A DNA stretch of 39,602 nt from a virus: positions 1 through 39,602 of the IMG/VR virus record IMGVR_UViG_3300037264_002168; one strand, given 5' to 3'. This document shows, piece by piece, positions 5,605-39,309 of this stretch. The notes beneath the pieces were generated by a model. That model saw nothing but the letters and a program-made list of their open reading frames with translations, had not been told where the DNA came from and searched no databases. The number at the start of each line of letters is the position of its first letter. Within the stretch, counting starts at the first letter, position 1. The translations under genes were made by a program, and so were the position numbers.

Positions 5605-5660
5605 TGATATAATAGACTAAGAGGAGAATACCTCACCCATTGTGGTGAGATTTTTTATAT
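5605..5660 (+). promoter_or_regulatory. Composite leader A: promoter, GAGG element, terminator-like hairpin, ATG
   Basis: An extended -10 (TGATATAAT, 5605-5613) is followed by GAGGAG (5621-5626), then a hairpin CTCACC/GGTGAG (5632-5637 with 5644-5649) and six T's (5651-5656), four bases before ATG 5661. GAGG can also pair with CCTC (5631-5634), so anti-terminator-like and terminator-like folds exclude each other. Three more leaders of this design occur at 9277, 31794 and 37701. Confidence 0.75.
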
Positions 5661-6584
5661 ATGGCTGTATCTAAAACTGACATAAATCCTGCGACTGGTA
5701 AAATGTATGCAGTAAATCCAAGCACAGGTAATTGGGATGATAATTACTGGGCGCAAAATGAAGCTAGATTTAATGCCGGTTCTTCTGCTGGATCATCTGG
5801 ATCATATGATATAGCCTCAATTCTTGCAAAACAACAGGCAGAGTCAGAAGCAAAACTTGCTGAACAAGCAACGGCACGAACTGCATTTAATACAAAACTC
5901 CAGGGAGAAGAATCAACATTCTTAAACAAATTTCGTACAGAATATCCCACTGTTTTATCAGGTTTAGAAAGTACATTGGGCATCCCCGGGCTTCGTGAAC
6001 AGGCATTGGGTTCAACTCAGGCATTAGGGGATATATCATCTCTTGTCAGAACCACACCACAACGCACTACACAGGCCGCACGGGGATTTGATGTAGGAGC
6101 GGGTCAACTTGAACGAATGACTGCCGCAGAAGTAGCTAAATTACAACCATCATTTGAAACCGCGACACGGGGAGCTGAAACGACTTCGGCTGCATTGTCT
6201 TCAGCATTAGGTGCTTATTCAACAAAGGCTCAAGAGGCTCTTTTACCCTATTCAACAGAGTTGGATTTGATGAAAGACAGGTTTGCGCGTGAAGCCACAG
6301 GATTTAATACAGACGCAGAGAATGAACTCAACACTTTAATGAAACGTATAGAAACTGAAGGGACATTAGTGGCTCAGGGAATGAAAAACCAAACCGATAT
6401 AACAATAGCAGATATAAATCGGGCAAGTGCTTTAGCGCAGAAAGAAATAGAAAATGAAAAATTTAAGAATGCCATGACTTATCAGGATTTAGGAAATAGA
6501 GTCGCAATATTAGATGTTAATGGAAAAGAAATTGGTTCAATGGCAAAAGGAAAATTGGGGACAATCGGTGATGATGGATTCTAA
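5661..6584 (+). CDS. Internal virion (ejection-like) protein, Ala-rich coiled coil
   Basis: The 307-residue protein begins with a polar region carrying an NPATGKMYAVNPSTGNW repeat-like opening. Long Ala/Gln/Glu-rich helices follow from about residue 50 to 280, predicted as coiled coils. It sits directly before another long helical protein with hydrophobic patches (6588). This pairing, size and composition resemble podovirus internal proteins that leave the capsid with the DNA. The assignment is inference. Expression starts from composite leader A. Confidence 0.45.
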   Translation: MAVSKTDINPATGKMYAVNPSTGNWDDNYWAQNEARFNAGSSAGSSGSYDIASILAKQQAESEAKLAEQATARTAFNTKLQGEESTFLNKFRTEYPTVLSGLESTLGIPGLREQALGSTQALGDISSLVRTTPQRTTQAARGFDVGAGQLERMTAAEVAKLQPSFETATRGAETTSAALSSALGAYSTKAQEALLPYSTELDLMKDRFAREATGFNTDAENELNTLMKRIETEGTLVAQGMKNQTDITIADINRASALAQKEIENEKFKNAMTYQDLGNRVAILDVNGKEIGSMAKGKLGTIGDDGF

Positions 6585-9276: not shown

Positions 9277-9331
9277 TGATATAATAAAAGGAAGAGGAGA
9301 ATACCTCGCCAACGGCGGGGATTTTTGTTAT
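9277..9331 (+). promoter_or_regulatory. Composite leader B: promoter, GAGG element, hairpin, ATG
   Basis: TGATATAAT (9277-9285), GAGGAG (9294-9299), then hairpin CCTCGCC/GGCGGGG (9304-9310 with 9314-9320, three-base loop) and five T's (9322-9326), ending 5 nt before ATG 9332. CCTC can pair instead with the upstream GAGG. It is divergent from the minus-strand promoter. Confidence 0.75.
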
Positions 9332-9682
9332 ATGGATCCAAATCAAAATACAGGTAGCTTCGGACAGGGTTTGGGTGGAACTGACGCTTTGAAACAGGCT
9401 CTTTCTCGGAGAGGGATTGATAGTTCCATTCTCGATCAAATCACTCCTGCCTCTGGTGGTGCTTCTCCCGTGGCTCAAGGAATACCCCAAACGAACCCTA
9501 ATATAGGCACCACAGACCAACAGGTGGCCTCACAAGCGGTTCCTGGTATCCCTACGGCAACTATCCCAAAAATACCATTTCGATCAGCAGAGATGGAAAT
9601 AGCCACAAAAGCCATGTCTGGGATCATAAATACAGAAAATGAAATAGTAAAACAAACACTCAAATTACAAGGATTAGGATAA
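9332..9682 (+). CDS. Hypothetical small virion-region protein
   Basis: The 116-residue protein has a Gly/Gln/Pro-rich low-complexity first half (GSFGQGLGG, GIPQTNPNIGTT, VPGIPTATIP) and a short helical C-terminus ending LQGLG. I recognise no family. It is the first gene after composite leader B, as other virion proteins are, and is followed 6 nt later by another small protein. A minor structural role is plausible from position only. Confidence 0.6.
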   Translation: MDPNQNTGSFGQGLGGTDALKQALSRRGIDSSILDQITPASGGASPVAQGIPQTNPNIGTTDQQVASQAVPGIPTATIPKIPFRSAEMEIATKAMSGIINTENEIVKQTLKLQGLG

Positions 9683-12603: not shown

Positions 12604-12629
12604 TGATATAATAATATATAGAGGAGAAT
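12604..12629 (+). promoter_or_regulatory. Extended -10 promoter with ordinary leader and Shine-Dalgarno
   Basis: TGATATAAT (12604-12612), then GAGGAG (12621-12626) three bases before ATG 12630. This is the only extended -10 promoter here whose GAGGAG directly serves a start codon. The composite leaders look like this one with ACC and a hairpin in place of the ATG. Confidence 0.75.
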
Positions 12630-12833
12630 ATGGCAAAAGTGACACTAAAAGATATTTACGAAATTACAAATAGGATCGAAGATAAACTCGATAAAATCGA
12701 GGGTCGTGTTTCTGTTCTTGAAATATGGAAAGCTGAATTGATTGGAAAAATGACGGTTATTGGTGGTATATTACTTCTCGGATTTAATCTTACATGGGAT
12801 TTTCTGAAAGCTAAACTTTTTAAGGATATATAG
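12630..12833 (+). CDS. Coiled-coil membrane protein, XhlA/holin-accessory-like
   Basis: The 67-residue protein has a helical coiled-coil N-terminus (residues 5-38, ITNRIEDKLDKIEGRVSVLE). One membrane segment follows (about 40-58, MTVIGGILLLGFNLTW) and then a basic tail. Its size and topology match haemolysin XhlA-like lysis accessory proteins. It directly precedes the peptidase gene, supporting a lysis role. It is driven by the extended -10 promoter at 12604. Confidence 0.65.
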   Translation: MAKVTLKDIYEITNRIEDKLDKIEGRVSVLEIWKAELIGKMTVIGGILLLGFNLTWDFLKAKLFKDI

Positions 12834-14151: not shown

Positions 14152-14225
14152 GGGGATGTTCTGGTAGACCAAACCATGAGTAATCATGCAAGGTAACGCG
14201 GGTTCGATTCCTGCCATCTCCACCA
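14152..14225 (+). tRNA. tRNA-like element with abnormal anticodon arm
   Basis: The 74-nt element has a 7-bp acceptor stem (GGGGATG with CATCTCC, one G-U pair) and an encoded ACCA end. Its T arm is textbook: GCGGG, loop TTCGATT, CCTGC. The D arm is short (CTGGTAGACCA). The only anticodon-like stem, CATGA/TCATG (14175-14188), closes a four-base loop GTAA instead of seven, so no anticodon can be read. It may be a degenerate tRNA, a decoy, or an integration-site relic. No amber-reading CTA anticodon is present. Confidence 0.45.
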
Positions 14226-18915: not shown

Positions 18916-19123
18916 CCTTTCTCATCTGTAGAAAGCTGGAAGTGACTGACAAGGATAGGTTAGGTTTGCCAGCCGAAGTGTCCCGATTTGTGGCAACAGA
19001 ACGGGGATTAGATAAAAAATTATCTAAATGTAGGGTGACTATACGAGTTATAGAACTATGGCTTACATGGGTCTATCTTGTCAAATCCCTACCTTCCAGC
19101 TTTGTGGAGAGGAGAAGAGGAAT
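18916..19123 (+). ncRNA. Candidate structured RNA with pseudoknot, leader of rtcB
   Basis: A 210-nt gene-free gap. AAAGCTGGAAG (18932-18942) pairs with CTTCCAGCTTT (19093-19103). GACAA-GATAG (18948-18958) pairs with CTATC-TTGTC (19073-19082). TTGCCA (18966-18971) pairs with TGGCAA (18991-18996), and CCCG in its loop (18982-18985) pairs with CGGG (19002-19005), a pseudoknot. There are hairpins at 19008-19027 (8 bp) and 19039-19053. CTTTCT (18917-18922) can compete for AGAAAG, and CCTTTCTC may cover the GAGAAGAGG ribosome site. This suggests a riboswitch-like or substrate RNA. Confidence 0.6.
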
Positions 19124-20320
19124 ATGCAAGTAAATACAGAAGGAAATATACCAGTTAAATTATGGCTTGATGATATTGAAGATAATGCGATGGAACAAGT
19201 AAAACATCTATCTATACTTCCATTTGCATATCATCATATTGCCATCATGTCTGATGCTCATCAAGGATATGGTATGCCTATTGGTGGAGTTTTAGCTACT
19301 ACTGATGTGGTAATTCCCAATGCAGTAGGTGTGGATATTGGGTGTGGTATGTGTGCGGTTAAAACTTCACTGACTGAACTTCCAGTAGAAAGATTAAAGG
19401 AAATCATGGGTAAAATTAGACAAACTATCCCTGTTGGGTTTGCTCATCATAAAGACAGACAAGATATGAAGTTAATGCCAGAATTGGATAGAGAAAAAAA
19501 TTATATAACAGACGCATTCAACCATGGTTCTGGAATTGTATCAAGAGAATATGATAAGGCATTGTATCAAATAGGTACTCTTGGTGGAGGAAATCATTTT
19601 ATTGAAATCCAAAAAGGGTCAGATGGTCATATTTGGATAATGATACATTCAGGTTCTCGGAACTTTGGATTGCAAATTGCAGATTATTACAATAAAAAGG
19701 CAGTTGAATTAAACGAAAAATGGCACTCAAAAATTCCAGAAGAATGGGAGTTAGCATTTTTACCAATAGATAGCGATGAAGGGCAAGCATATATCAAGGA
19801 AATGCAATACTGTGTAGAGTTTGCTTTGGCAAATAGAAAATTAATGATGGAACGAATTGCTGATATTTTTGACAAAAATACTTCCGCTCCATTTATTGAT
19901 ATGAATGAAATGATAAATATTGCTCATAACTATGCTTCCCTAGAACATCACTTTGGAAAAGATGTATGGGTTCACAGGAAAGGAGCAACTCTGGCACAAG
20001 TAGATACCATAGGCATTATTCCTGGGTCGCAGGGAACACATAGTTATATTGTAAAAGGAAAAGGCAATCCAGACAGTTTTGAATCCTGTTCTCATGGTGC
20101 TGGTCGGAAAATGGGAAGGAAACAAGCACAACGGACATTAAACCTTGAAGAAGAAAAAAAACGACTGGATGATTTAGGGATTGTGCATGCGATACGGGGA
20201 GTACAGGATTTAGATGAAGCACCAGGGTCGTATAAAGATATTGATATAGTAATGAAAAACCAACAGGATTTAGTAGATGTTCTCGTTGAATTGACACCAA
20301 TGGGAGTTATAAAAGGATAA
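19124..20320 (+). CDS. rtcB: RNA ligase RtcB
   Basis: The 398-residue protein joins RNA ends bearing 2',3'-cyclic or 3'-phosphate to 5'-OH ends with GTP and Mn2+. Family signatures are present: SDAHQGYGMPIGG near 43, VDIGCGM with D71 and C74, GGGNHFIE 154-161, HSGSRN 175-180, HRKGAT 284-289, and SHGAGR with the guanylylated His at 324. The length matches cellular RtcB. ATG 19124 was chosen for the GAGGAGAAGAGG site; earlier starts lie in the structured leader. In phages RtcB is thought to repair tRNAs cut by host anticodon nucleases. The abnormal tRNA-like element in this genome makes that context interesting. Confidence 0.93.
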   Translation: MQVNTEGNIPVKLWLDDIEDNAMEQVKHLSILPFAYHHIAIMSDAHQGYGMPIGGVLATTDVVIPNAVGVDIGCGMCAVKTSLTELPVERLKEIMGKIRQTIPVGFAHHKDRQDMKLMPELDREKNYITDAFNHGSGIVSREYDKALYQIGTLGGGNHFIEIQKGSDGHIWIMIHSGSRNFGLQIADYYNKKAVELNEKWHSKIPEEWELAFLPIDSDEGQAYIKEMQYCVEFALANRKLMMERIADIFDKNTSAPFIDMNEMINIAHNYASLEHHFGKDVWVHRKGATLAQVDTIGIIPGSQGTHSYIVKGKGNPDSFESCSHGAGRKMGRKQAQRTLNLEEEKKRLDDLGIVHAIRGVQDLDEAPGSYKDIDIVMKNQQDLVDVLVELTPMGVIKG

Positions 20321-22628: not shown

Positions 22629-22928
22629 ATGAGAAAAAATATCTCGAAAATTCAACCATCCCCAGGCTATGTACTTCTTGAAATCTTAGAGAATGAAAAA
22701 CCATCCTCTTTCATAATTGCAGATAAAGACGCGACTCCACAAAGAGGAAAAGTATTGTCAATTGGTGATTTTACATTTCATGAAGGGGTAGATGAGGAAT
22801 TTCATGCCCCCTGTAAAGTAGGAGATGCTGTTATTCACAGCGGGTACGGATACGAGAATATTCGTGTTGAAGGAGAACAATACCGGCTATGTCCATTTAG
22901 TAAAATATTGGCAGTTATAAAAAAATGA
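22629..22928 (+). CDS. groES: GroES-like co-chaperonin
   Basis: The 99-residue protein matches the Cpn10 barrel: IQPSPGYVLLEIL at the start, a mobile-loop-like stretch around 24-37 (EKPSSFIIADKDATPQ), RGKVLSIGD, then CKVGDAVIHSGYGYE and a final SKILAVIKK strand. Length is normal for GroES. It caps the GroEL ring during folding. A groEL gene follows after one small gene, and a strong consensus promoter precedes it, so the phage carries a complete chaperonin operon, presumably for its own virion proteins. Confidence 0.8.
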   Translation: MRKNISKIQPSPGYVLLEILENEKPSSFIIADKDATPQRGKVLSIGDFTFHEGVDEEFHAPCKVGDAVIHSGYGYENIRVEGEQYRLCPFSKILAVIKK

Positions 22929-23119
22929 AATCTATTGCTATTGTCTGTTGTTGGCGCTGTAAAAATAAGAAAAGTCAATTATTCCGTTGTGTTGATAAGG
23001 AAGGAAGTATGACTGATGATTATATATGTAAAGACTGCAAAGATTATTCTGGATTGAAAGCACCAGAGATAGGAAATCAGTCAAGAATATATTTCAAAAA
23101 GGAGACCCATGACAAATAA
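22925..23119 (+). CDS. Small zinc-ribbon protein between groES and groEL
   Basis: The 64-residue protein has CCWRC (residues 8-12) and CKDC (about 35-38), a zinc ribbon. It overlaps groES by ATGA and groEL by 11 nt, so all three are translationally coupled. The overlap suggests a chaperonin-linked task, but nothing in the sequence identifies it. Confidence 0.65.
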   Translation: MKSIAIVCCWRCKNKKSQLFRCVDKEGSMTDDYICKDCKDYSGLKAPEIGNQSRIYFKKETHDK

Positions 23120-24692
23120 ATACTCTCTCACAAAATTCAACGAACAAGCGCGAAAATCCCTTCTTGATGGCGCAAAAGAAGTTTATACTGCCGTTTCCAC
23201 TACTCTTGGAGCGCGGGGAAGAAATATCACTATTCATAATCATTATCAGACAAAATCAATTCACGACGGAGTTAAAGTTTCCCAGTCTATCAATCCAAAA
23301 GACGACTTTGAAAATGCCGGTGCTGAAATGTTGAAAGAGTCAGCGCAACGACAAGTTTCTGTCGCCGGTGATGGTACAACGCTTGCTATTATCTTAGGTT
23401 ATGCAATCGCCTCAGAAGCGGAAAAAATGGTCAATGCCGGTGTCAACCCTATGGCACTTCGGGCAGGACTTGAAAAAGGATGCGATCTTCTTGTTAAAGA
23501 GATTAAAAAACTTTCCACACCTGTTACTTCTAAGGAACAAAAAGTACAGATCGCTACTATCGCCAGTCAAAATAAGGAATTAGGTGAACTTATAGGCGAC
23601 ACTCTTCATAGGGCAGGAGTTGAAGGAGTCATTACTATTGAGGAAGCAATCGGATCAGAAACCTTTGTCGAACATAAAGAAGGAGTACAAATAGATTCAG
23701 GATTTAAGACGGATTATTTTATTACCAACCCTCACTCAATGACCGCGACGGTTTCAAAAGCGAAAATACTTGTCACTGATTATAAACTCAATGACATTCA
23801 TGAACTTGTGCCATTATTCAAAAACGTCATTGAAACAAACGGGGTACATAATATCGTCATTATCTCCGAAGACATAGAAGGGACAGTATTGGCGACCTTG
23901 GCTCAAAACAAAATTCAGGGGAAACTCAACACATTGGCTATCAAAGCCCCTACATTCCAACAGGAACAGGTCTTGCGTGATATTGCCACAATTGTCGGAG
24001 CTAAATTTATCTCCCAAGAGATGACGATAGATTTGAAGGAATTGACCATTGATGACCTGGGCTATGCAGACCAAGTTACCTCATCCCGCACCGCTACGGT
24101 CATCGTAGGGGGTGGAGGAAAGGATACCGCAGTCAAGGAGAGGATCGACTCAATCAAATCACAGCTAGAAGAAGAGGAAAACGAATTTAACAAACAAAAG
24201 TTACGAGAACGGTTAGCGAAACTTACTGGCGGGGTCTATGTCGTCTATGTCGGCGGGCAGACCGAGGTTGAAATGGTAGACCGAAAAGAGAGAATAGATG
24301 ATGCAATCCAAGCCACCCGCGCGGCAATGAAAGAAGGCATTATCCCTGGCGGTGAGATTGTCTTTTTAGGGATTGATAAAGTGTTAAAACCCAAGAATGA
24401 CGATGAAGATTATGCGTTTCGGATATTGAAGAATGCACTCAAAAAACCATTTGAAAAGTTAGTTGAAAACGCTGGATTTAATGCCGGACAATTACAAGAA
24501 CGATTATCAAAAGAACTTAAAGGAATGGGTATTGATGTTACCACAGGGGAAATAGTCAACATGGTAGAAAAAGGTATTATTGACCCTACTCTTGTCGCAA
24601 CCGAGGCGATTAGAAATGGAGTGAGTGTAGCAATCTCAATCATTTTGAGTGGCGGGACAGTATGTGAGATTGAAGAAGAAAAAGGAAAATAA
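23109..24692 (+). CDS. groEL: Chaperonin GroEL
   Basis: The 527-residue protein covers the full Cpn60 architecture. Equatorial motifs are TTLGARGRNI and AGDGTT with the catalytic Asp near 88; the apical domain spans about 190-375; RIDDAIQATRAAMKEG carries the second catalytic Asp. The C-terminal DPTLVATEAIRNGVSVA segment ends at EEEKGK without the Gly-Gly-Met tail of bacterial GroEL. The loop after GRN reads HNHYQTKSIHDG rather than the usual ...TITKDG. It is probably an active folding chamber specialised for phage proteins. GGAGACC lies before ATG 23109. Confidence 0.93.
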   Translation: MTNKYSLTKFNEQARKSLLDGAKEVYTAVSTTLGARGRNITIHNHYQTKSIHDGVKVSQSINPKDDFENAGAEMLKESAQRQVSVAGDGTTLAIILGYAIASEAEKMVNAGVNPMALRAGLEKGCDLLVKEIKKLSTPVTSKEQKVQIATIASQNKELGELIGDTLHRAGVEGVITIEEAIGSETFVEHKEGVQIDSGFKTDYFITNPHSMTATVSKAKILVTDYKLNDIHELVPLFKNVIETNGVHNIVIISEDIEGTVLATLAQNKIQGKLNTLAIKAPTFQQEQVLRDIATIVGAKFISQEMTIDLKELTIDDLGYADQVTSSRTATVIVGGGGKDTAVKERIDSIKSQLEEEENEFNKQKLRERLAKLTGGVYVVYVGGQTEVEMVDRKERIDDAIQATRAAMKEGIIPGGEIVFLGIDKVLKPKNDDEDYAFRILKNALKKPFEKLVENAGFNAGQLQERLSKELKGMGIDVTTGEIVNMVEKGIIDPTLVATEAIRNGVSVAISIILSGGTVCEIEEEKGK

Positions 24693-25006: not shown

Positions 25007-25203
25007 AATGCTCATACGATTTACATGATCCAGAAGAAAAATGTGAGAATGATGTAGTGTACTTTACAGTCACCCTTGGTTCTTATTATTTTCCAAGCTC
25101 CAGACTATGCATTATCCATTTGAAGAAACTCTATGAACAATTTGTTATTTTTATCAAAAATGAAGAAATGTCCAAACTGTCAGAAAAACCCAGCAATAAT
25201 TGA
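25003..25203 (+). CDS. Small cysteine-containing hypothetical protein
   Basis: The 66-residue protein has CSYDLHD...KCEND (residues 3-15) and a later CIIHL, perhaps a metal site of C-C-C-H type. It overlaps both neighbours. Function unknown. Confidence 0.5.
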   Translation: MKCSYDLHDPEEKCENDVVYFTVTLGSYYFPSSRLCIIHLKKLYEQFVIFIKNEEMSKLSEKPSNN

Positions 25204-25528
25204 TGATACCTATGGTGTGACGGAATGTGAAGAATGCAGAAATAAAAAGGTTACATTCAATCGAACATCTGAATTTACAACAGAAAGTATTCAAGAAGGT
25301 CGAAGAGAATATGGAAAAGATAGATTGCAACCATTCAGAGATGGTGTTGTCAGTAAAGAATACTTAGAACAATACGGACGAACTGGAATTAACGTCACCG
25401 ATGAACAGATAAAAAATGCGAAGTATGTTTGGAAGGATACGAAAGGCTGGTGGAATAGAGAGAAAACAAAAGGTGGACGAACTAAAGCATGGAAGGATAA
25501 AAATGTTGACAAAGCATTTCAAAAGTGA
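25160..25528 (+). CDS. Zinc-ribbon hypothetical protein
   Basis: From ATG 25160 the 122-residue protein opens with CPNCQKN and CEECRN (residues 4-26), a zinc ribbon. A polar domain follows, with YGKDRLQPFRDGVVSKEYLEQYG and a Trp/Lys-rich end. The domain after the ribbon occurs, as I recall, in small phage proteins of unknown role. It overlaps the upstream gene by 44 nt in another frame. Confidence 0.6.
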   Translation: MKKCPNCQKNPAIIDDTYGVTECEECRNKKVTFNRTSEFTTESIQEGRREYGKDRLQPFRDGVVSKEYLEQYGRTGINVTDEQIKNAKYVWKDTKGWWNREKTKGGRTKAWKDKNVDKAFQK

Positions 25529-25540
25529 AATAACAAAAGT

Positions 25541-25795
25541 ATGAATGATAAGGTCTATGATTTGATCGTCAAGATTTTAGATAGCGATTTATCAAAAGAA
25601 TCGAAAGATGAAATAGTCCGTTTCTATACCCTTCCCCGTAATACCCCTGTTCAACCTATGATAGAACTTCCCGAAGACGATGAGGGATTAGGAACCATCC
25701 ATAGACCGACAGCAAAAGACGAACAGAGAAAACTCAATCCAAGAAAAGCACAAGAAGAAGATGCGATGAGCGACACATTAAAAGGACGTGTATGA
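25541..25795 (+). CDS. Hypothetical acidic protein
   Basis: The 84-residue hydrophilic protein has a helical N-terminus (VYDLIVKILDSDLSKESKDEIVRFY) and a disordered charged tail. It is the last early gene. A 20-codon frame overlaps its stop by ATGA (25792), which I do not consider supported. Confidence 0.6.
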   Translation: MNDKVYDLIVKILDSDLSKESKDEIVRFYTLPRNTPVQPMIELPEDDEGLGTIHRPTAKDEQRKLNPRKAQEEDAMSDTLKGRV

Positions 25796-31793: not shown

Positions 31794-31881
31794 TTGACAC
31801 GACCTATCAATGATGTGATATAATAAAACCATAGGAGAAATAACTCCACCAAACGGTGGGGTTTTTTTATACAAAAAATAT
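31794..31881 (+). promoter_or_regulatory. Composite leader C of the major capsid gene
   Basis: TTGACA (31794-31799), 19-bp spacer, extended -10 TGATATAAT (31816-31824), GGAG (31834-31837), hairpin CTCCACC/GGTGGGG (31844-31850 with 31855-31861), seven T's (31862-31868), 13 bases, ATG 31882. GGAG can pair with CTCC instead. This is the strongest-looking promoter in the head module. Confidence 0.8.
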
Positions 31882-32979
31882 ATGGCTGCAGATGGAATAG
31901 CAATTTCAAACAGATTAGACGGAACCACAGAACGAAAACTTCACGGGAAGGTCGTTGATAATATCCTTGAGGGTCCAACGTATATGTCCCGCATGATGGG
32001 GAAAGCACAACCATTTGAGGGAAAAATAAAAGATTGGACCATAGATATTACAGAATCCACACAATTTGAATGGTTCACAGGACTTGAAGATTTGAATGCC
32101 TCAGCAGAAGATACCACAATTACTCTTTCTTATGCCCACACCGCAGGTACACAGCCGAAAGTCGGCATCATGCTTGAAAGTTTTGCAAATGCCGGAGCAT
32201 CAGGAACGATCCCATTGGATGCGTTCAAATATGCAAAAGCCGCGCAGGAATGTTTGAGAAATGTCGCAACAGCTGCCTATGCAACTGGTGCCGGAGATAT
32301 GCCAAATGGTTTACAGGCAATCGTTGATGATGGTACGAACGCAGGAACCATTGGTGGACAATCCAGAACGACCTATTCAGCCCTTAATTGCGGAGCGCAT
32401 ACCGCCATCGGAACAATGACGCTTGCAAAACTTGGAACAATGGATGATGCAGCCGCAATCGGCGGGGAAGTTGCAGGTATCCCGAACATCAACGTAACCA
32501 CATTTGCAGACTGGTCTTTATACGAACAACTTCTTGATCCTCAAATGAGAGCAAATTATGAAGCAGGTGGGTGGCCGGTCATGTCAATCCGAGGCGATGG
32601 AGCTTCACCGAAAGCACAGCTTGGCGGGGTGGCTGGATTAGTCGTTACCTTCCACAGAGGCCGACCTGTCATGAAAGACAAATTCTGTACGTCAGCAGTA
32701 TGGTACAAACTCAATGAAGACTCATTCGGATGGTTTGGGAGAACAGTCGTACCGGATGAATATAGAGGGAAACTTGAAAAAGTAAACATTGGATCAATGG
32801 AAGGCTATGAGTCAGTCGCGGCAAAGGAAGCACCATCAGAATTCAACGGATGGTTCTATCAAAGCCCGCAGATGATGCCGAATAACGCAGGAACAATTGC
32901 ACGGTTCTATGTCATCGGACAGATGATGACATGGGAGCCGAGAAAGAATGCACAGGGTCATGATATTACAGGAGTTTAA
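31882..32979 (+). CDS. Major capsid protein
   Basis: The 365-residue protein follows the scaffold, has the best promoter of the late region, and reads as a soluble alpha/beta capsid subunit. Features include TYMSRMMGKAQPFEGKIKDW near the N-terminus, FKYAKAAQECLRNVATAAYA as a spine-like helix, and a C-terminal MMTWEPRKNAQGHD segment. I assign it by position, size, expression and fold character, not by a diagnostic motif. A HK97-type fold is expected for tailed phages. The next gene starts 2 nt after its stop. Confidence 0.75.
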   Translation: MAADGIAISNRLDGTTERKLHGKVVDNILEGPTYMSRMMGKAQPFEGKIKDWTIDITESTQFEWFTGLEDLNASAEDTTITLSYAHTAGTQPKVGIMLESFANAGASGTIPLDAFKYAKAAQECLRNVATAAYATGAGDMPNGLQAIVDDGTNAGTIGGQSRTTYSALNCGAHTAIGTMTLAKLGTMDDAAAIGGEVAGIPNINVTTFADWSLYEQLLDPQMRANYEAGGWPVMSIRGDGASPKAQLGGVAGLVVTFHRGRPVMKDKFCTSAVWYKLNEDSFGWFGRTVVPDEYRGKLEKVNIGSMEGYESVAAKEAPSEFNGWFYQSPQMMPNNAGTIARFYVIGQMMTWEPRKNAQGHDITGV

Positions 32980-33734: not shown

Positions 33735-33773
33735 CCTCGCCTTATTTTAGAGAGAGTTGAGGCGAGGTTTTTT
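33735..33773 (+). terminator. Intrinsic terminator after capsid operon
   Basis: CCTCGCC (33735-33741) pairs perfectly with GGCGAGG (33761-33767), loop 19 nt, followed by six T's (33768-33773). It should end or weaken the capsid transcript. Confidence 0.85.
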
Positions 33774-36044: not shown

Positions 36045-36758
36045 ATGGCCGAAGAAAAACCTAAATCAGTCTTCATTCAGGAAATGGAACGGAGAACGAA
36101 TGATCTTCTTCGAGTCTATAACCCTATAGAGAAAGATTTTGTCGTAAAATGGGATAAGAAGAATGGCACTAAACTCTTCCGAGTGCCAGCCAAAACAGAA
36201 TCCGTCCATATCCGCTATATCGCAGAAAAATATGTCCGTGAAATGTATCAACAGATTATTACCGAACGCACGGATAAAGCAGTTATAGAAGAAAATGAAC
36301 GGAGAGTAGCAAAAGGATTTGCTGAAATGTTGAAATATAAGGAACAACAACCCTTTGAGAGCAGATTTTATAACCCAACCGATGAAGATGCCAAGAAAAT
36401 CATTTCCATCCTCTATGTCGGCATTGAGAATGAGTTTGGTGTCGACAGGGAAGCCCCGCCGGATGAATCAGGAGTGAGGGAAGAAAAGCCGGTCTTTAAT
36501 CGCGCGTTAGAGAGCGTCATGGAAGAGAAAAAAACATCTGTTCCAACGCCTCAAGAACCTACAACACCTCCATTAACTGAAGTACCGGACCGGCAAAAAA
36601 CAGAAGATGGATTTAAGTGCGACCATCCTGGGTGTGATTTTACGACGAAAACAAGAGTGGCCCTATTCGGTCACAAGCGATCCCATCAGAAAGAAATTGA
36701 TACTTTAGAAGAGAAAAAACAATCAGCAGTATCAGGCATATCCGCATCAACTGTATGA
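36045..36758 (+). CDS. Hypothetical protein with C2H2 zinc finger
   Basis: The 237-residue protein has a mixed N-terminal domain (VKWDKKNGTKLFRVPAK, helical 55-100) and a Pro/Thr linker. A canonical C2H2 finger has C192, C197, H210, H214 (spacing 4-12-3) with the aromatic F199 and L208. A second gene with VKF...FTVPG-like strands (36925) resembles its first domain. Role unknown; a DNA or protein contact in the virion is possible. Confidence 0.65.
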   Translation: MAEEKPKSVFIQEMERRTNDLLRVYNPIEKDFVVKWDKKNGTKLFRVPAKTESVHIRYIAEKYVREMYQQIITERTDKAVIEENERRVAKGFAEMLKYKEQQPFESRFYNPTDEDAKKIISILYVGIENEFGVDREAPPDESGVREEKPVFNRALESVMEEKKTSVPTPQEPTTPPLTEVPDRQKTEDGFKCDHPGCDFTTKTRVALFGHKRSHQKEIDTLEEKKQSAVSGISASTV

Positions 36759-37703: not shown

Positions 37704-37752
37704 TATAATATAACTATGAGGAGTATACCTCGCTGAAAAGTGAGGTTTTTTT
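37701..37752 (+). promoter_or_regulatory. Composite leader D: promoter, GAGG element, hairpin, ATG
   Basis: TGATATAAT (37701-37709) reuses the upstream stop. GAGGAG (37718-37723), hairpin CCTCGCT/AGTGAGG (37728-37734 with 37739-37745, GAAA loop) and seven T's (37746-37752) lead directly to ATG 37753 with no gap. GAGG can pair with CCTC instead. Confidence 0.8.
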
Positions 37753-39309
37753 ATGGCTAGATCACCGATTGATGAAAATTCTGTGCATGGAATCGTTTTA
37801 GAGGGCGATCCCTCTGGTACTGCCCTACCATGGAAAGGAAATGATACTAATGGAGCTGCCTATGTTGAACTCATCAGTCCCAACGGGGATTCGGTCATTG
37901 ATGACACAAATGATGCCGTCAAAGTCAATATAGTGGCTGGTTCATCAAGCGGAATACAATATACTGACGGAGGTGTACCTCCTGCCCACCCGGTAGGAAA
38001 TACGGTTGAATGGTCAGATGGCTCAAATTGGCAAACCGTATCAACAGCAAAACCGCTTCCCGTTACCGCATCTATAGATACCACAGGATTAGCTACTTCA
38101 ACAGGTCAAACAACAGGTAATAATTCATTAAGTAGTATTGATACAAAAACTCCTGCTTTGGGACAAGCTCTATCGGCCTCATCTGTTCCTATTGTTCTTA
38201 CTGCCGCACAAATAATTACATTAACTCCACCTGCCGCTATTACTGGATTTGCTACTTCTGCCAACCAGTTACCCGATGGTCATAATGTCACAATAGATAA
38301 TTCTAATGGAGCTTCGGCGGTAAATATTCAAGATGGAGGAAATACAATAACCGTTGATGGAACGGTAACTGCTAATATCTCAGGATCAATTTCAAACACT
38401 TCTTTTGCTTCAACCATTGCAGATGGTGCAGATGTAACACTCGGAGCAAAGGCAGATGCCAAAAATACTGCAACCGATAATACTGCTATAACAATAATGC
38501 AGGTTTTGAAAGAAATCTCCTATATGGAGCAGACACCAGCTTCACGGGCTGTAACTAATGCGGATATAACCTCATGTAAAACCGCTTTGGAACTTCTTGA
38601 CAATTCCGTTGATGGAAATTATCTGAATACCAACATGAATATCGCTGGTACTGATGTTGTCGGAGGTGCTGGTGCAGTGGCGGCTGGAGTACAACGGGTT
38701 ACACTTGCCTCAGATGATCCAGCGGTCATTGCACTTCAACTTATTGATAATGCTGTTTCTGGTGCTGGATTTAATATTACTCAGGTAAATGGAGAAACAA
38801 TAGATGTCGGTGCAGGAAGCGAAGCGGCAGCGATTCGGGTGACATTACCTACTGATGGTACAGGAGTGGTTAAATTAGGAGCTGGAACGAGTGAAATTGG
38901 AAAATTGGCAACTGGAACCGCAAACATAGGGGATGTAGATGTTTTGAGTATAACAAACGCCTCAATCAATGGCCCTGGAGTACCTGTTATTGACTCCTAT
39001 TCCAAAGTAGCAATCAATCTCGCTGCGGGAGCAAATCAAGTATTGGTTTCCAGTGCTGCCAATAAACAAATTTGGGTCTATGGATTTGGATTTACCGTAA
39101 ACGTAGCAGGGACAATTTCATTTCAGGATGAAGATGATACTACTATTACAGGAATTATGCCAATTGCTACCAATGGAGGTATGGTGAATGCTCCTTCTGG
39201 CAATTTCGCTATGCCAATATGGAAATTAGCAACAGATAAAGATTTAGAGGTTGACATAGTTACGTCTGAAATGGATGGATGGCTTTGTTACGCTCTAGTA
39301 AGTGTTTAA
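37753..39309 (+). CDS. Tail/virion structural protein
   Basis: The 518-residue protein has an N-terminal domain with GTALPWKGNDTNGAAYVELISPNGDSVIDDTNDAVKVNIV, a long Thr/Ala/Gly-rich beta-repeat middle (TANISGSISNTSF, VNIQDGGNTITVDG, ITQVNGETIDVGAG), and a compact C-terminal beta domain from about 420 (KVAINLAAGANQVLVSS...KQIWVYGFGFTVNVAGTISF). The pattern is typical of large phage tail or baseplate-like fibres. It has composite leader D and heads the tail operon across the join. The next gene overlaps by TAATG. Confidence 0.6.
   Translation: MARSPIDENSVHGIVLEGDPSGTALPWKGNDTNGAAYVELISPNGDSVIDDTNDAVKVNIVAGSSSGIQYTDGGVPPAHPVGNTVEWSDGSNWQTVSTAKPLPVTASIDTTGLATSTGQTTGNNSLSSIDTKTPALGQALSASSVPIVLTAAQIITLTPPAAITGFATSANQLPDGHNVTIDNSNGASAVNIQDGGNTITVDGTVTANISGSISNTSFASTIADGADVTLGAKADAKNTATDNTAITIMQVLKEISYMEQTPASRAVTNADITSCKTALELLDNSVDGNYLNTNMNIAGTDVVGGAGAVAAGVQRVTLASDDPAVIALQLIDNAVSGAGFNITQVNGETIDVGAGSEAAAIRVTLPTDGTGVVKLGAGTSEIGKLATGTANIGDVDVLSITNASINGPGVPVIDSYSKVAINLAAGANQVLVSSAANKQIWVYGFGFTVNVAGTISFQDEDDTTITGIMPIATNGGMVNAPSGNFAMPIWKLATDKDLEVDIVTSEMDGWLCYALVSV

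Follow-up and report, generated by a model that had tools for sequence, protein, structure and literature searches.

The DNA analysed here, referred to as the window, is a 39.6-kb phage contig (39,602 nucleotides) that carries genes for a portal protein, a terminase, a major capsid protein (MCP), GroEL/GroES and RtcB. Judged by capsid and portal, its nearest named relatives are a TM7 (Saccharibacteria) phage and a spring phage, at 22-28% identity, and since a TM7 phage is among them we infer that the host is a TM7-like or other Patescibacteria bacterium. GroES and GroEL are encoded at 22629-24692, and GroEL was found in most long relatives; the RtcB RNA ligase lies at 19058-20320. A tRNA-like element at 14152-14225 has an acceptor stem, a T-arm and an encoded CCA, with a 5-bp anticodon stem and a loop of just 4 nt. 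It was not called by ARAGORN, and a degenerate similar one occurs in two relatives (G009 and G010). Positions 36045-36758 encode a conserved protein ending in a segment that resembles a C2H2 zinc finger, seen only in the window and its closer relatives.

Four genes of the window are preceded by a composite leader, always on the plus strand and always in the same 5'-to-3' order: an extended -10 element (TGATATAAT in all four), a short arm A, a 6-nt A/T-rich loop, arm B, arm C, a U-tract and the ATG. The leaders span 5608-5660, 9280-9331, 31819-31881 and 37704-37752. Leader 1 has the -10 TATAAT at 5608-5613 (the extended element begins at 5605), followed by an A:B hairpin at 5621-5634, made of GAGG (5621-5624), the loop AGAATA and CCTC (5631-5634), with which arm B starts. 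Its terminator-like hairpin B:C (5631-5649) and T-run (5651-5656) together occupy 5631-5656, and the ATG of a conserved gene follows at 5661. Leader 2 repeats this design with its -10 at 9280-9285, an A:B hairpin of the same letters (GAGG, AGAATA, CCTC) at 9294-9307, and B:C at 9304-9320 with a T-run at 9322-9326 (9304-9326 overall), before the ATG at 9332. In leader 3, the -10 at 31819-31824 is followed by GGAG, AAATAA and CTCC at 31834-31847 and by B:C at 31844-31861 with a T-run at 31862-31868 (31844-31868 overall); the ATG at 31882 opens the MCP gene (31882-32979, phrog_9953). Leader 4 has its -10 at 37704-37709, GAGG, AGTATA and CCTC at 37718-37731, and B:C at 37728-37745 with a T-run at 37746-37752 (37728-37752 overall) that touches the ATG at 37753. 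Arm A is thus GAGG, GAGG, GGAG and GAGG in leaders 1-4 and arm B begins CCTC or CTCC; the T-runs are 5-7 T long and end 4, 5, 13 and 0 nt before the ATG. Because arm B is common to both hairpins, the A:B and B:C folds are mutually exclusive. A preliminary description of this DNA had proposed just such a four-copy leader, and every part of it was found where described. That description had also called the downstream genes virion operons, which holds for the major capsid gene; the other three encode conserved phage proteins without an assigned function, for which a virion role is only likely.

Other promoters and terminators of the window depart from this design. A hairpin-free related promoter at 12607-12632 (plus strand) has GAGGAG at 12621-12626 and an ATG; as had been claimed for this element, cited there as 12604, the promoter is identical to that of the leaders and an ATG takes the place of the hairpin. 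About eight further promoters (972, 2443, 25956, 28253, 30706, 31031, 35236 and 35806) are of the leaderless type, with the -10 a few bases before the ATG. Across the clade, 113 conserved genes look leaderless by a crude test for a -10 near the ATG. On the plus strand at 33735-33773 there is a terminator-like hairpin with a 17-nt loop and a T-run and without an arm A.

We collected relatives through capsid searches that returned 9, then 14, then 15 viral loci, as overlapping sets, and one contig from a genome collection. That contig (L030, JAIQGC010000145.1) belongs to the clade but comes from a Terriglobia MAG, where it is perhaps mis-binned, given that it is absent from five relatives of the MAG genome. 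Upstream of the capsid gene the relatives have a leader of the same build in different letters, with A-loop-B segments such as GAC-AAAATA-GTC, GAGA-AAAATA-TCTC, GGCT-AATATA-AGCC, GGTT-AATTA-AACC and CGG-ACATA-CCG. A promoter-free search of the window and 14 relatives for the succession A-B-C-U gave 36 matches, compared with 1.7 in dinucleotide shuffles, and nearly all 36 lie 7-10 nt 3' of a -10 and directly 5' of an ATG. We also scanned 27 contigs (668 kb) for a -10, a hairpin, a T-run and an ATG while ignoring arm A. This yielded 61 hits, five of which we discarded manually because they were accidental matches in coding regions or nearly duplicated another hit, leaving 56 credible leaders. 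A script found an A:B stem in 54 of them; the remaining two are both from one relative (G005), where GGAGC can pair with GCCC if one A bulges. The same pairing with one bulged A is possible in a listed leader of another relative (G016) whose stem is doubtful. These results give strong support, over 27 contigs, to the two exclusive folds proposed in the preliminary description.

The leader recurs in 26 further contigs of the clade, before the same genes as in the window and mainly before the MCP gene. Catalogued leadered orthologues comprise 16 cases of the capsid gene, five of the portal gene and three of the SU10-adaptor-like 987 family. The family of the gene at 5661 is present in 12/12 long contigs and leadered in 10/12 genomes; that of the gene at 9332 is leadered in 8/10 genomes, and that of the gene at 37753 accounts for eight catalogued leaders. 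In two distinct phages the capsid leader is a tandem of two complete units, the second without a -10 of its own. Strong hairpin-plus-U sites on the coding strand are leaders in 4/5 cases in the window and in 3/3, 5/5 and 3/4 in three relatives (G006, G013 and G026), and the leaders make up nearly all intrinsic terminators on this strand in most of the long contigs; one long contig, G020, is an exception and has the capsid leader only.

At the sensitivity of the present scans, the element appears to be confined to one phage clade. Of 70 loci matched in IMG/VR by a pattern scan that ignored proteins, four are assigned to the clade by protein similarity: L148, a known member, and the new L105, L112 and L142. 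The automatic A-blind leader test was passed by L112 and L148 alone; reading by eye gave the capsid leaders of L112 and L105 and the L142 leader, which carry an A.C mismatch. No leader with an A:B stem was found in 24 other viral loci, unrelated or remote and including two remote relatives. Of the generic IMG/VR pattern scans, one gave chance matches and another two matches without a leader, and a scan based on the portal protein gave no matches.

Next, we asked how specifically arm A matches arm B. RNAalifold predicted no consensus pairing from a MAFFT alignment, apparently a result of misaligned C arms, and for this reason we relied on permutation and named-structure tests. The pairing energies of each leader's own A and B sum to -107 kcal/mol, compared with -28 +/- 7 when A regions are permuted among leaders; the lowest of 2000 permutations reached -56. 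In an MCP-like subset of 19 leaders, picked by ORF size and including a few other genes, the own sum is -41 against -11 +/- 4 permuted. Across 25 aligned leaders, the covariation of A with B is 0.822 versus 0.245 +/- 0.046, and 32 cells are changed on both sides versus 8.9, with 0/500 shuffles as high in either measure; when the pairing is slid, covariation collapses to at most 0.21. The 25 rows were preselected for A:B stems, a selection of which the permutation test on all leaders is free, and the alignment undercounts four G013 rows, so that in this respect the covariation count is conservative. There are more than 15 distinct A:B pairs. Covariation had been claimed from the window, where two arm types make a thin case by themselves; it became strong once relatives were added. 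Judged from sequence, this is a real, conserved and covarying family of leaders of RNA switch-like design within one phage clade.

Pairing arms could also be read as DNA, with A:B a palindromic operator that lies just 3' of the promoter, beside an ordinary terminator, and binds a dimeric repressor co-evolving with it in each phage. Palindrome arms would then covary between genomes and be alike within one, as observed. Moreover, mismatches in A:B are of both the A.C and the G.U type, about equally frequent, so that mismatches alone do not prove RNA pairing or separate it from DNA pairing; G.U enrichment in the segment of B:C that overlaps A was not significant (p = 0.08). We nevertheless consider an operator very unlikely: the spacer is not dyad-symmetric (its end bases are complementary in 5/54 leaders and are A...A in 38), its length varies from 4 to 7 even within genomes, the right half-site nearly always lies inside the terminator stem, and the promoter is absent from tandem and promoterless (class II, below) copies.

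The sequence of arm A bears on a further proposal of the preliminary description, that the hairpin bridges a distant Shine-Dalgarno (SD) element, namely arm A, to the start codon. GAGG or GGAG serves as arm A in the window and in close relatives, and the 12604 site uses GAGGAG as a plain SD. Most other leaders have the same architecture with arms unlike an SD (AGTC, GGCT, CGAC, GGTT, CGG, GACT), and arm A is SD-like (GAGG, GGAG, AGGA) in only ~15/54. As a general role, SD bridging is refuted, and we give the idea almost no credence, although it could still be an additional function in the subclade to which the window belongs.

A role in translation or mRNA stability was considered as well, in which a 5'-terminal hairpin would protect the message, the U-rich stretch would aid ribosomes and termination would be incidental; a stabilising 5' cap had been among the mechanisms first offered. 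It would account for the 47/56 leadered genes without an SD near the AUG, for the many ATGs near the U-tract and for the placement of the A:B hairpin at the predicted 5' end. It leaves unexplained why B is shared by A:B and the terminator in nearly all copies, which stability does not need, and it fits poorly with the promoterless class II elements and second tandem units, which are not 5'-terminal, and with a hairpin-to-AUG distance that ranges from 5 to >40 nt. This makes it, in our view, rather unlikely.

Class II elements are found in relatives at a terminator before a small gene inside the head operon. Here an upstream arm of 6-8 bases (CGTAAGG and variants) is able to pair with both the 5' arm and the loop of the terminator. 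Scanning found them in six relatives (G001, G003, G004, G005, G016 and, with a shorter stem, G014) and reading by eye in a seventh (G002). No -10 is evident next to them, which we take as a sign that the competing arm is part of the terminator rather than of the promoter. The window hairpin at 33735 has about the position of the class II site of relatives, suggesting kinship to class II.

The A:B hairpin itself is small. Arm A starts mostly 7-11 nt 3' of the -10, at or just after the predicted transcription start, and the stem has 3-5 bp with no internal loops. Its loop follows a conserved, asymmetric motif, A-N2-3-U-A: hexaloops (n=25) have A1 in 22/25, U5 in 22/25, A6 in 25/25 and G4 in 1/25, and pentaloops (n=19) have A1 in 16/19, U4 in 15/19 and A5 in 17/19. 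Arm A plus loop is more similar within genomes (0.70) than between them (0.45; z 12), compared with a z of 4 for the remaining terminator, and such sameness within a genome would be expected of a shared trans-acting reader. The A:B stem is weak, with energies of about -0.6 to -5 against about -6.5 to -18 for B:C. When folding of the nascent chain was followed with 9-12 nt hidden, A:B was the best fold in 37/38 leaders; its phase lasts, in the median, from 4-7 nt before the first U to ~+8, after which B:C takes over. Since A:B is so much weaker than B:C, the terminator may dominate without a helper, or A:B may act only kinetically.

The main rival to a regulated switch is that these elements are constitutive punctuation: the terminator would end transcription of the preceding operon, with arm A weakening it by a fixed degree that lets the nested promoter and part of the read-through pass, with no regulator and with arm strength setting gene dosage. 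Such a role suits the three of four window leaders that sit at operon joints, directly after or overlapping the preceding stop codon, as well as the presence of an arm A on nearly all terminators of these phages, the class II elements inside an operon with no evident promoter, and the finding that unaided A:B forms in time during nascent-chain folding. It requires neither the sameness of arm A and loop within a genome nor a clade-wide loop motif, and a promoter placed 5' of its own terminator would be wasteful unless the stop could be lifted. For these reasons we regard fixed punctuation as unlikely, if less so than the alternatives above.

We propose instead that each leader is a miniature transcription attenuator for virion genes, with read-through most likely depending on a factor that acts via the A:B hairpin; we think this reading is probably correct, with considerable room for doubt. 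An attenuator or antitermination target is thereby favoured among the four mechanisms first offered. Consistent with it, the leaders have an intrinsic terminator hairpin with a U-tract and an upstream arm that pairs, with covariation, with the terminator's 5' arm. RNA polymerase would start a few bases 5' of arm A, if the start site follows from the -10. As it nears the U-tract, the A:B hairpin would form, with 3-5 bp and the loop A-N2-3-U-A, and arm B would double as the base-proximal 5' arm of the intrinsic terminator B:C. While A holds B, the terminator stem would be shortened and separated from the U-tract, and the virion gene would be transcribed; if B shifts to C, transcription would end after about 35-45 nt. 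Because A:B alone is much weaker than B:C, a helper is most likely required, and a reader that stabilises A:B is suggested by the energy gap between the two stems, by the conservation of the loop and by the likeness of arm A and loop within a genome. Such a factor, encoded by phage or host, would enable read-through by binding the A:B hairpin and would coordinate the capsid gene with other virion genes. Termination in vivo, the trans-acting factor and the timing are what we infer from this arrangement. Many virion-region promoters in these phages are leaderless, so the switch would not cover all late genes.

More tentatively, the reader might be a phage-encoded RNA-binding antiterminator of a new kind, co-evolving in each phage with its target, a lone mini-hairpin near the 5' end with the loop A-N2-3-U-A. 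By recognising this hairpin it would switch on the capsid and other virion operons, freeing them from their built-in terminators. No antiterminator protein was identified by domain search: the ANTAR domain was found in 0/12 phage contigs at E<=1, and CAT_RBD (BglG-type) domains in none of the 12. A core protein encoded at 25133-25528, present in 12/12 long contigs, has a zinc-ribbon-like CxxC...CxxC start; it is possibly a nucleic-acid binder and as such a candidate reader. Another small protein conserved in these phages is encoded at 25541-25795. If the proposal is true, a compact (~40 nt) antitermination switch is reused at many virion genes in a phage clade without a cultured member, probably infecting TM7/Patescibacteria-type hosts, whose gene control is almost unknown. 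The 50-60 natural variants would be available for studying competition between terminator and antiterminator and for finding the reading factor.

The preliminary description knew of no family of this design. This stands for Rfam 15, where no family matched at gathering score, and for the open-access papers searched, in which we found no described family; it needs qualifying in that the logic is near that of ANTAR P2 antiterminators. A phage promoter followed by an early terminator that has to be overcome is familiar from lambdoid late control (Q protein, pR' and tR') and from the HK022 put RNA. In those systems the polymerase undergoes processive modification and a single late site suffices for the entire late region, unlike the many local sites found here, each with its own competing arm. 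The SAS/ESAS elements of cluster K mycobacteriophages, a 13-bp GGGATAGGAGCCC and 17-bp repeats at start codons that are thought to be translational, are likewise recurrent before many start codons, partly inverted repeats and kept at orthologous genes (PMC3203893). The 13-bp GGGATAGGAGCCC has no match in the window with up to two mismatches allowed. The ribonucleic antiterminator (RAT) of BglG/SacY/LicT consists of a stem interrupted by two asymmetric internal loops (PMC3369936). It resembles the phage leaders in that an antiterminator, there stabilised by a protein, excludes a terminator, but the phage A:B stem has 3-5 bp and no internal loops.

Closest are the ANTAR antiterminator leaders (EutV, NasR, AmiR), which combine a P1 and a P2 hairpin, each with A1 and G4 in its loop (PMC3369931, PMC3369936). 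Like P2, the phage A:B element is a short-stemmed mini-hairpin with a hexaloop that starts with A and a 3' stem that overlaps the proximal terminator arm, and as in ANTAR systems the same hairpin stands before several genes of one regulon, its stems changing by compensation (PMC3369931, PMC3369936). Unlike ANTAR leaders, the promoter-bearing (class I) phage leader has just one such hairpin, located at the predicted 5' end, and no room for a P1 between the -10 and the terminator, and the signature of its hexaloops is A1, U5 and A6, with G4 in just 1/25. In logic, then, the leaders come close to ANTAR P2 hairpins, with P1 and G4 missing, and they look like a hitherto undescribed means of turning on virion production through an either/or RNA fold.
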